Below, piece after piece: positions 19,319-41,528 of a stretch of 42,917 nt of DNA; positions within the stretch are counted from its first letter, which is position 1; each line of letters opens with the position of its first letter. The stretch is from IMG/VR virus record IMGVR_UViG_3300049561_000024, positions 1 to 42,917 of that record; one strand, given 5' to 3'. This DNA comes from a virus. The position numbers were made by a program, and so were the translations under genes. The notes under the pieces are model-generated. The model was not told the origin of the DNA. It searched no databases and saw only the letters and a list, made by a program, of their open reading frames with translations.

Positions 19319-20419
19319 CTATCTATATGAGGAATGTGCTGGCGTTGCACATCCGATTGGCGCTCTAAACATTTTAATTATTTCTATTATTTCCTGATCA
19401 TTCGTTATTCCGGTCATATATGGTGAACGTGACGAAACTGGAGCGCCTGATTGTGCGTATTTTATTCGATGGCCATCCGTTTCCTCTTCCAGCAGTGCCC
19501 CGATAATTGGAGGTGGTTGTATTGCCGTGGTCCCCGATAGATATGGCGCTGTAATTTTTTCTATCACCAATTTTAATAATGCCCTTTGTATTGGTTTGGG
19601 CACGCTCATATCTTCTTCAACATAACCCAATGTGCATTTTATTTCCTGATTCCCTCTGCCTTTTCTAAATATCAATTGCCCATAACTTATTGGCGCTGTG
19701 TATATATCACGTACATCATCTGAACGAATAAGTTTGATTCTCGGATTTCTTCTATCATCTGGATACGTGATGGCTGTGTATGCCTTGTATAATCCAATGT
19801 CTAAAGGCGTTTCACTATTATTTATTTTCATGTATTCTACTGATATGATTGGCACACCAAAATGCAACGTATCCGAATCTGTACCATCAATTTTAAGTAC
19901 AACAATTTTTGGAACAAACCATTGCCTACAAGTTCTATCAAGTACCGATTGCCAAAGTTCTATGCTTGACAGAACAGCAGAATCTGGATACAACGCTAAA
20001 TCGGTCAAACCAGCATCACGAACATCCTGAATCGCGATATATGTGTCTATGGATGAACCGGATGATTGAGACAATACTTCAAAATCCTCTGCGCCCAATT
20101 GATATGGCGCAGCAATATTGATTTTCCATCTCCAATATATTCTATGCGTACCAATATTTTCTGTAATTAATGGTGTATATCCGGTGTCAGCAGTATTATC
20201 ATAAGCATAATGTGATCCTATATTGAAATTTCCTGGAGCGCTCGTGACATTTTCCCATTCGCCCGGTATGATCGGAAAAATTTGTGTGCCTGGAAGTCCT
20301 GTTGATATGTCAAATATTTGATAACCAATTTCATAAACATCAGTCAATACGCCACCAACAGTTACAAACCAATTTAGTATTGATGGAGTATTTTCTTGAC
20401 ATCTCGATAAAGCAGGCAT
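19319..20419 (-). CDS. Head-tail adaptor protein with extra N-terminal beta domain
   Basis: 366 residues. The C-terminal two thirds (YIAIQDVRDAGLTDLALYPD, IELWQSVLDRTCRQWF and MSVPKPIQRALLKLVIEKI) follow the pattern of connector proteins of the gp6/gp15 type that bind under the portal. About 130 N-terminal residues (ILNWFVTVGGVLTDVYEIGY, PIIPGEWENV, GTHRIYWRWKI) form a separate beta-sandwich-like domain, an addition to the usual 100-200 residue adaptor. The position downstream of the capsid genes agrees. Confidence 0.6.
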   Translation of the reverse strand: MPALSRCQENTPSILNWFVTVGGVLTDVYEIGYQIFDISTGLPGTQIFPIIPGEWENVTSAPGNFNIGSHYAYDNTADTGYTPLITENIGTHRIYWRWKINIAAPYQLGAEDFEVLSQSSGSSIDTYIAIQDVRDAGLTDLALYPDSAVLSSIELWQSVLDRTCRQWFVPKIVVLKIDGTDSDTLHFGVPIISVEYMKINNSETPLDIGLYKAYTAITYPDDRRNPRIKLIRSDDVRDIYTAPISYGQLIFRKGRGNQEIKCTLGYVEEDMSVPKPIQRALLKLVIEKITAPYLSGTTAIQPPPIIGALLEEETDGHRIKYAQSGAPVSSRSPYMTGITNDQEIIEIIKMFRAPIGCATPAHSSYR

Positions 20420-35260: not shown

Positions 35261-35356
35261 CTACAGGGAAGCCAATCTCTTCCCTGTAGAAACACAGTCT
35301 GCCAACTGTGCAGTAGATCTGTACAGATTTGAACTGCAAACAATCCGGTCAGGATT
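35261..35356. other. Four consecutive stem-loops
   Basis: Four inverted repeats lie nearly end to end: 35261-35289 (11-pair stem, CTACAGGGAAG), 35293-35310 (six pairs), 35310-35337 (GCAGT/ACTGC plus an inner palindrome around GTAC) and 35342-35356 (AATCC/GGATT, spanning a stop codon). On the minus strand they follow the 35349-35540 gene and precede the lipoprotein gene. The 11-pair stem could terminate or process transcripts. The rest of 35177-35260 shows nothing else. Confidence 0.6.
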
Positions 35357-35540
35357 CAGATGCGTGCGGCAACACAACAGACCTTTGTTGGTGGGTATCT
35401 TGATATGATCGCGGATGGTGTGCGTAAATATTGCTCCACCTTGACACATTTTTTTCAATCGTTCGCTCTCCGCACATACATGTTCTTGAACCCATCGGAA
35501 ACCGATGAATCTTCTCATCGCATTGTTTTGACTCGTTCAT
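35349..35540 (-). CDS. Small Cys/His protein, probable zinc-binding
   Basis: 63 residues from MNESKQCDEK at 35540, with AGGGG upstream; a longer in-frame Met at 35564 overlaps the previous gene. The pattern C-x4-H-RFPMGSRTCMCGER is a common small phage zinc-binding signature. The remainder has no recognisable features. A reading frame in another phase (35261-35518) is weaker by this criterion. Confidence 0.45.
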   Translation of the reverse strand: MNESKQCDEKIHRFPMGSRTCMCGERTIEKNVSRWSNIYAHHPRSYQDTHQQRSVVLPHASES

Positions 35541-36249: not shown

Positions 36250-36337
36250 AAACGCTTGGTTGGAAGTTCTACGGTTGACCTATTTTAGGTCGTACGCTCA
36301 CCAAACTTGACGTACTCCAGAAGCCAACCAAGCGTTT
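36250..36337 (-). ncRNA. Candidate structured RNA with 14-bp stem and two inner hairpins
   Basis: AAACGCTTGGTTGG at 36250-36263 is the exact inverse of 36324-36337. A four-pair extension (36267-36270 with 36319-36322) continues it. Inside are two hairpins: 36277-36291 (GACCTA/TAGGTC with a three-base loop) and 36292-36315 (GTACG/CGTAC with a 14-base loop), giving a three-way junction. The stem begins one base after the discriminator base of the upstream tRNA-like gene and ends 13 bases before a ribosome site. It may protect or mature the tRNA 3' end or control the next gene. No known family is recognised. Confidence 0.65.
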
Positions 36338-36338
36338 G

Positions 36339-36536
36339 TGGGCCGAACAGGATTTGAACCTGTAATAGCTTAGGCAGAACCAATTCACACGTCCGTCAAC
36401 TATGAAATGGTTCTTTTGGGAACTTCGATGCTCGTGTGGTGCATACAATGATCCACCGTCGTAGTGTAATGCATCAGCCTAGAGTCCGTTTGTTGCTATA
36501 TGCCTTCCTTGCGTCTACCAATTCCGCCATCGACCC
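36339..36536 (-). tRNA. Interrupted Leu-type tRNA-like gene (second copy)
   Basis: On the minus strand GGGTCGA (36536-36530) pairs with TCGGCCC ending at 36340, followed by discriminator A. The 5' half has T8-G9 and a D-arm (GCGGAATTGGTAGACGC) of class II tRNA-Leu type. The 3' half has the T-arm ACAGG-TTCAAAT-CCTGT. Between them are about 140 bases where an anticodon arm and variable arm would need about 31. An AGGCA/TGCCT stem and a 13-pair hairpin (36366-36414 region) lie in the insert. No anticodon can be assigned. CCA is not encoded. Intron or tmRNA-like insert are the alternatives. Confidence 0.6.
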
Positions 36537-36704: not shown

Positions 36705-36911
36705 GGGGCTCGCCAGGATTTGAACCTGGAATGGACTTAGGCATTCATCAATCAAATTTCGCCAAATTTGTATCAGAATTTATGGATGCTATTTTGTTCC
36801 CAGTGTGGTTTCAACAACGCCGCTTGCGATTTCGACCATGAAGCACATCTAACATTTTGCATTGTCCGTCCAACCCATTAGCCTGCGTCTTACCAATTCC
36901 GCCACGAACCC
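36705..36911 (-). tRNA. Interrupted Leu-type tRNA-like gene (first copy)
   Basis: GGGTTCG (36911-36905) pairs with CGAGCCC (36712-36706) with one G-U pair. The D-arm region GCGGAATTGGTAAGACGC and T-arm CCAGG-TTCAAAT-CCTGG are clear. About 145 bases separate them. A hairpin with seven pairs and a GGCG loop (CAAATTT/AAATTTG) lies before the shared word GCCTAAG. The base after the acceptor is C, not the usual A. It starts nine bases after the tmRNA end, so both come from one transcript. No anticodon assigned. Confidence 0.58.
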
Positions 36912-41024: not shown

Positions 41025-41528
41025 ATTGAATTCTAAACAAAAATATTGATTATTCGCAAAATATTATTTTCCACCGCTATTAACAGCATTTACCCCATGC
41101 AAAAACCACACTGGGAAAATTAAAGTTACATCCGGCATGTCGTTAATCGAAGTGTTGTGTTGCTTCCCAAGGTCAAAATCACCAAATTTTTACCTTTCAA
41201 CGATTTCAAAATTGGCGTTTTCCAAGTTTTTATGATACTCGAAAAAGCAAAATACCATCTTTTTGAGCACTGGGTCGCTAGATATGTAAATGGCGGCGGT
41301 CATTATTCATTGGCATCTTGCTGATTTGCGGGGTTGGATGTGGTTGGGGTTGGATGTGGAATCGTCGTGGCGTTGTGTCTTTGTGGGATTGCGTGGCAGG
41401 TTATGTGTGTTTGGCATTTGTGTGATTATCATTGATTGGTGTTTTCCATAGTTGTTTGTTGTGTTTCCGATTCGGATGTTTTTATCGATGTTGTAGACGC
41501 ATTAAACTATGGTTGTGTCTTTGTGTGA

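Follow-up and report, generated by a model that had tools for sequence, protein, structure and literature searches.

The window analyzed here is a 42.9-kb IMG/VR virus contig (IMGVR_UViG_3300049561_000024; 42,917 nt) from a contractile-tailed phage, and a Leu-type tRNA-like gene, referred to here as copy 2, occupies positions 36339 to 36536 of its minus strand. A second gene built on the same plan, copy 1, lies close by. The reading that we favor, with confidence somewhat above even, is that copy 2 encodes a nondecoding tRNA mimic, most likely acting toward host factors as a decoy, sponge, or alternative substrate. The RNA structure of such a mimic is well supported, and a decoy or substrate function toward host factors that act on tRNA is probable by analogy. 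Reading of codons in the usual way is excluded for an RNA of this type. An earlier note on this DNA had placed the gene at exactly these coordinates.

Two Leu-type shells with unrelated middles

Copy 2 runs from base 1 at 36536 to base 72 at 36340 and A73 at 36339. Its acceptor strands, GGGTCGA (36530 to 36536) and TCGGCCC (36340 to 36346), pair at seven of seven positions, with one G-U. The Leu-type D-arm, TGGCGGAATTGGTAGACGC with bases 8 and 9 included (36511 to 36529), is the same as that of the wider class described below, and the T-arm, ACAGG-TTCAAAT-CCTGT (36347 to 36363), is intact with a 5-bp stem. Together with A73 and the core pair A15-U48, the Leu-type tRNA-like shell claimed in the earlier note is therefore all present; CCA is not encoded. 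The D-arm and T-arm of a tRNA are usually about 31 to 36 nt apart, compared with 147 nt in copy 2, where a payload (36364 to 36510) that ends in U48 replaces the anticodon and variable arms. Within it, a strong hairpin, AGAACCA...TGGTTCT (36414 to 36376; whole-RNA minimum free energy z = -2.16), is followed directly by GCCTAAG (36375 to 36369), as the earlier note had described. Two further pairings are predicted. The b strand ATAGC (36495 to 36499), at the offset where a class-wide helix begins, can form a variable-stem-like helix with the b' strand GCTAT (36365 to 36369), which adjoins U48. The a strand AGGC (36502 to 36505), part of the GACGC...AGGC arrangement correctly noted as common to both copies, may pair with the a' strand GCCT (36372 to 36375) in a weakly supported helix. 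In both copies AGGC/GCCT would cross b/b', and crossing helices are common among the predicted structures of the class, though only mildly above chance.

Copy 1 (bases 1 to 73 at 36911 to 36705 of the minus strand) carries a 155-nt payload and has C as its discriminator base (C73, at 36705), one extra base in the D-loop, and a fold with a minimum free energy no better than that of shuffles (z = +0.47). Both copies have 7/7 acceptor pairs, a 5/5 T-stem, and U48. The inserts resemble each other only at the level of shuffled sequences except in their final 14 nt, where TGCCTAAG and then a few bases precede the T-arm. The b/b' helix of copy 1 (TGGAC, 36868 to 36872; GTCCA, 36732 to 36736) lies, as in copy 2, 11 to 16 nt past the D-arm, and four of the five pairs differ between the copies in a compensatory manner. 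Compensatory differences also separate the copies at three acceptor pairs and one T-stem pair. Since similarity is approximately 80% in the 5' leaders and in the tRNA halves, copies 1 and 2 look like paralogues with differing middles; the description of them as two cases with one plan stands, and that of full independence does not.

Neither copy was detected by ARAGORN or Rfam at default settings. Patterns combining GCCTAAG with the T-arm returned nothing but ordinary or unrelated genes, with no direct homologue of either window copy, and no Leu-shell gene was found in those related contigs, reached via dCMP deaminase and terminase, that were examined.

A class of phage RNAs with a constant upper half

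IMG/VR was scanned with patterns in which a Leu D-arm is followed by a T-arm at an abnormal distance and the acceptor is left unspecified; matches that the permissive Leu-D-arm scan drew from normal neighbors, from tRNA-Leu genes in tandem, or from stretches of N in genome assemblies were excluded. Class members were defined by a Leu D-arm, a 7/7 acceptor, a 5-bp T-stem, U48, and an abnormal spacer, all of which are found in both window copies. At least approximately 120 nonredundant genes share this plan (class totals are lower bounds), in agreement with the earlier view that the copies are not products of random decay. The acceptor was paired at 7/7 positions in 85 of 100 N62-92 pattern matches compared with 0 of 100 when its 3' strand was slid by three bases, and is thus kept far beyond chance; the T-stem was 5/5 in 95 and U48 was present in 97 of the same 100. 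U48 partners A15 of the Leu D-loop, and base 48 tracks the D-loop type: U48 accompanies A15 in 119 of 120 genes, and C48 accompanies G15 of the generic D-loop in 76 of 77. As the acceptor, T-stem, and U48 are retained even though the acceptor is absent from the search pattern, the tRNA top core of the class is, on comparative sequence grounds, under selection. A73 occurs in approximately 80% of class members, among them copy 2, and A stands at base 1 in 75 of 135 atypical genes compared with 4 of 81 normal tRNA-Leu genes. Rfam scores some members above its tRNA cutoff, as odd tRNAs. The class is large and apparently undescribed.

Beneath this core, the six bases preceding U48 pair with upstream sequence far beyond the level of dinucleotide shuffles (27 of 120 genes at p <= 0.05; binomial p = 4e-11; Wilcoxon p = 9e-9), whereas two internal control windows were flat in the same test. 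The upstream partner mostly begins 4 to 28 nt past the D-arm. Compensatory changes in this helix were identified in four subfamilies: GTCAAC/GTTGAC in L247 against ACCAAC/GTTGGT in L300; GTAAC/GTTAC in L242 against GCAAC/GTTGC in L259; GGAG/CTCC in L094 against TAAG/CTTA in L168; and, with the same bulge, GGTAA(A)GGA/TCCTTACC in L142 against GATGA(A)CGA/TCGTCATC in L203. The compensatory changes that the earlier note had proposed seeking in relatives are found in b/b', and the hairpin that it singled out is not what relatives retain. A fixed class-wide pseudoknot with a' immediately before b' was considered and is unsupported.

In several subfamilies the gene is 92 to 100% identical between contigs while the 200 bases on each side are only approximately 50% identical, which is the level of unrelated flanks, and identity starts and stops at the gene ends. 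By these comparisons the Leu-shell gene spreads as a unit. One shell, AGTCAGG...CCTGACT, carries at least 51 different payloads; it was not found in 395 genomes of the bacterial class to which Sphingobacterium paludis belongs. Several copies with different payloads are present on single contigs at L105, L248, L276, L300/L301, L302, and L311, as in the window, and among the matches listed, an ordinary tRNA is lacking from 75 of 122 contig pieces measuring 5 kb or more. The checked hits in sequenced bacteria adjoin phage genes, namely, terminase and portal in S. paludis, terminase in Riemerella, a RecE-like nuclease in Hoylesella and Bacteroides, and a phage-type transposase in Christiangramia. 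Across the class, payloads match their own contigs no more frequently than shuffled payloads do, and antisense payloads occur at chance level.

Absence of an anticodon arm and competing explanations

The earlier note called the gene interrupted, in the sense of a tRNA bearing an insert. The reconstitution test sought an anticodon stem of five pairs closing a loop of seven bases that includes U33, and all ways of splitting it were allowed, among them those in which the 5' strand straddles the insert. Neither window copy yielded such a stem for any cut, and the Leu set as a whole remained at chance both for arms rebuilt by removal of an insert (10 observed, 6.3 expected) and for intact arms hidden inside the payload (29 observed, 20.6 expected). 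The positive control consisted of long-spacer phage genes that have the common D-arm TAGCTCAGTTGGTAGAGC, of which 32 of 77 could be reconstituted perfectly compared with 0.6 expected; their inserts of 40 to 55 nt lie mostly between bases 28/29 or 29/30, with CTNNNAA-type loops and anticodons of many isotypes. Interrupted phage tRNAs thus exist and are detectable by the test, and the Leu genes therefore differ in kind. When shorter distances were allowed, members with the same shell and middles of just 20 to 41 nt were identified, similar to or below the length of a normal lower half; hence, the lower half has been replaced rather than interrupted. A local variable arm of approximately 11 to 15 nt is also not present in the window copies, where the bases before the T-stem can pair instead with a segment 11 to 16 nt past the D-arm. 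With introns allowed, ARAGORN proposed anticodon-loop introns of 121 nt (Thr, GGU) and 114 nt (Ala, GGC), the proposals differing between the copies; these were rejected for imperfect pairing, the lack of a 5/5 stem, and isotypes in conflict with the Leu D-arm. Covariance models produced only chance hits to Rfam elements in the insert at E <= 10 and no match to a group I core at that threshold.

That copy 2 is a tRNA-Leu precursor from which the long middle is spliced to leave a normal anticodon arm, as proposed for Lak megaphages, is consequently quite unlikely. Such introns do occur in Lak phages (PMC6784885) and in the control genes, and the Leu genes L252, L262, L267, and L126 resemble a tRNA-Leu in which a short insert lies close to the anticodon; these points are outweighed by the failed test and by the 20- to 41-nt payloads in the same shell. 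Decay of tRNA genes with insertions, the copies being chance survivors, has in its favor the lack of close relatives of the window copies, C73 and the extra D-loop base of copy 1, and a degenerate tRNA-like sequence nearby (35314 to 35384). Against this stand the complete acceptor, T-stem, and U48 in both copies and, for the class, conservation, compensatory change, spread as a unit at 92 to 100% identity, and the presence of solitary genes outside tRNA clusters, by which decay is largely refuted for the class and very unlikely for copy 2. A reduced tmRNA-like ribosome rescue RNA is scarcely credible. It would share with transfer-messenger RNA (tmRNA) a topology of acceptor, D side, one long enclosing helix, and T-arm, and copy 1 adjoins a phage tmRNA; however, only that neighbor (37234 to 36918) matches the Rfam tmRNA covariance model, positions 3-70 form G-C and not the alanine-directing G-U, no credible, shared, or tag-like reading frame is present, the D-arm is full, and most relatives are not next to a tmRNA.

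The main alternative to a decoy or substrate role is that the shell is a carrier for processing and stability, trimmed and protected through RNase P, RNase Z, and the CCA enzyme, while activity resides in the payload, for instance, as an antisense or protein-binding RNA. The constancy of the shell around at least 51 payloads, the several payloads per phage, and the unit-like spread agree with this. The copy 1 payload also contains AAACCACACTGGGAA, a 15-nt exact match to positions 41103 to 41117 on the plus strand and antisense to minus-strand transcripts; approximately 0.01 to 0.02 such matches are expected by chance, and the matched stretch lacks long minus-strand open reading frames. The class-wide absence of excess payload matches to the same contig argues against a carrier, and the complete conservation of payloads within some subfamilies, with no relation between subfamilies, fits any payload function. 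We consider this alternative unlikely.

For the favored mimic, decoy or substrate, the upper half would be that of a tRNA-Leu (acceptor, D-arm, T-arm, the A15-U48 core pair, and A73), and the lower half would be a folded payload of its own, closed beside the T-arm by a helix to a segment 4 to 28 nt past the D-arm. The folded payload and the absence of an anticodon arm are evident from comparisons across the class and are likely for copy 2. The features that host RNase P and 3' enzymes read, the elbow and acceptor, are intact, so these enzymes would be expected to excise the RNA from a tmRNA-tRNA transcript; as the gene encodes no CCA, the host would be expected to add it. The product would then engage host factors that bind a tRNA by its elbow, acceptor, or variable arm; candidates include tRNA-cleaving defense proteins and leucyl-tRNA synthetase. 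An arms race over tRNA-binding proteins would drive fast payload change beneath a fixed upper half. Phages oppose tRNA-cutting defense with tRNAs, including defense that cuts in the variable loop (PMC11555353, PMC13096335); this, together with the fit of a variable lower half under a fixed upper half to an arms race, makes decoy or substrate the best guess at a role. Leucylation of class RNAs is possible and not universal; C73 in copy 1 and the approximately 20% of the class without A73 make leucine charging unsuitable as a general function. Several points weigh against the favored reading, among them these discriminator bases: the decoy role is argued entirely by analogy, the b/b' helix of the window copies taken by itself is not significant (p 0.2 to 0.4), and the window copies join the class by plan and not by payload homology, no close relatives having been found. 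More tentatively, and at rather less than even confidence, constant tRNA-like shells with interchangeable payloads may form a modular phage small-RNA system in which a CCA-ended or charged mimic presents variable RNA domains to host machinery. This draws on the two to three payloads per genome, the at least 51 in one shell, and the movement of units of approximately 100 to 200 nt between unrelated genomes.

Genomic setting, related RNAs, and significance

The window phage encodes a tail sheath, baseplate wedge, tape measure, and portal; all genes with an assigned function are on the minus strand, and its large terminase is distant from that of every named phage (25 to 29% identity). The small RNA cluster is read leftward as tmRNA (37234 to 36918), copy 1 (36911 to 36706), an ordinary tRNA-Pro(UGG) (36698 to 36622), and copy 2 (36536 to 36339), all on the minus strand. 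The tmRNA, with the predicted tag DKNNEYPYQVVNLLAA, ends 6 nt upstream of copy 1. A perfect 14-bp inverted repeat, AAACGCTTGGTTGG, with a 60-nt gap (36250 to 36337) lies immediately downstream of copy 2 and is a possible 3' processing or stop signal. The degenerate tRNA-like sequence on the minus strand at 35314 to 35384 scores 25.5 bits against the Rfam tRNA cutoff of 29, with the loop CTGACCG and an odd D-arm. Upstream of the tmRNA, between 37265 and 37475, lie an 18-nt exact direct repeat, TTTATTTTCAAAGAGCTG, and a 31-nt inverted repeat of 87% identity.

Among the generic-D-arm loci (L321 to L440, for example, L418, L392, L378, L374, and L404), the inserts of 40 to 55 nt in phage tRNAs for Lys, Asn, Ile, and others, at 28/29 or 29/30 of the anticodon stem, often consist of a hairpin followed by CAGCAA or end in GTTACTT, and look like an uncharacterized class of small introns. 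A separate homologous family (L346, L371, L380, L383, L389, L409, L419, L362, L373, and L391) has the generic D-arm and lacks an anticodon arm; its members conserve either GGTGAAGGACC or GGTAAAGGACC, and their outer helix covaries (CCTCC/GGAGG, CGTCC/GGACG, and CACCC/GGGTG). Alanine charging of anticodon-less generic genes via G3-U70 was considered; the pair occurs in 8 of 45 compared with 0 of 32 intron-type genes but inconsistently within a family, and the idea is not relied on. A cyanobacterial family with the Leu D-arm (L442, L449, L457, and L470; Trichormus, Paraprochloron, Nostoc, and Prochloron contigs in sequenced genomes) has a spacer of 82 to 85 nt and mostly C at base 73. The cultured Bacteroides phage BS-TP2 (PQ571275.1; L081:1497-1605), the best suited for bench work, carries an unannotated Leu-shell gene (at about 19550 to 19658 of the phage record) in which the order GAGTA..GAGCTTT..TACTC..AAAGCTC suggests a pseudoknot, the pairing being retained with other bases in L209. 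Klebsiella phage Centimanus (OZ240615.1; L080:3003-3200) carries a Leu-shell-like gene with a 139-nt spacer and five of seven acceptor pairs, partly annotated as tRNA-Stop(tta), and blastn suggests similar genes in related jumbo Klebsiella and Serratia phages.

The closest published relatives of the Leu class are the tRNA introns of Lak megaphages, of unexplained function, one of which may contain a tRNA and of which, to the knowledge of those authors, no earlier report in phage existed (Devoto et al. 2019, PMC6784885). Both are phage tRNA-type genes bearing a long extra segment, one Lak segment enclosing a whole tRNA, but the Lak genes are described as decoding tRNAs from one phage group, whereas the Leu class spans many phages and has no anticodon arm that can be rebuilt. 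The Lak-A2 nested-tRNA gene (L491:19065), in which a GCTCA/TGAGC anticodon stem surrounds the extra segment, resembles five Leu-shell genes with a nested tRNA-like sequence and its own T-arm in the payload (L203:5553, L088:8098, L105:3502, L173:5066, and L485:7398). With tmRNA, copy 2 shares a tRNA-like top, the lack of an anticodon arm, and, by prediction, a single long helix around a large domain; it differs in its lack of a tag frame, G3-C70, complete Leu D-arm, length of 198 nt, and lack of an Rfam match. The D-arm, T-arm, A15-U48, A73, and acceptor length are those of bacterial type II tRNA-Leu, whereas the anticodon arm and local variable arm are missing and a predicted variable-stem-like helix would close a large payload. 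A group I intron occurs in tRNA-Leu(UAA) of cyanobacteria and plastids and is likewise extra sequence within a tRNA-Leu gene, but the window payload is too short, has no group I match, and is not flanked by anticodon exons. The tRNA-like ends of plant viruses are parts of genomes and not separate genes. Phage tRNAs set against tRNA-cutting defense (T5 tRNA-Tyr, PMC11555353; T6, PMC13096335) are likewise phage RNAs that imitate tRNA with a possible decoy or supply role, but these decode and the copy 2 RNA cannot. No description of anticodon-less Leu-shell RNAs was found in the open-access literature, most subscription papers and preprints being outside the search.

Programs that count phage tRNAs expect an anticodon, and the class is mostly missed or misannotated as a result, as seen for the window copies, the unannotated BS-TP2 gene, and the Klebsiella phage gene called in part a stop tRNA. 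The cultured phages allow a direct test of the pattern of constant shell and variable payload. If these RNAs are stable tRNA mimics, they form a concrete set for studying what phages gain from tRNA-type genes, be it a supply for translation or a means to interfere with the tRNA biology of the host and with tRNA-cutting defense.
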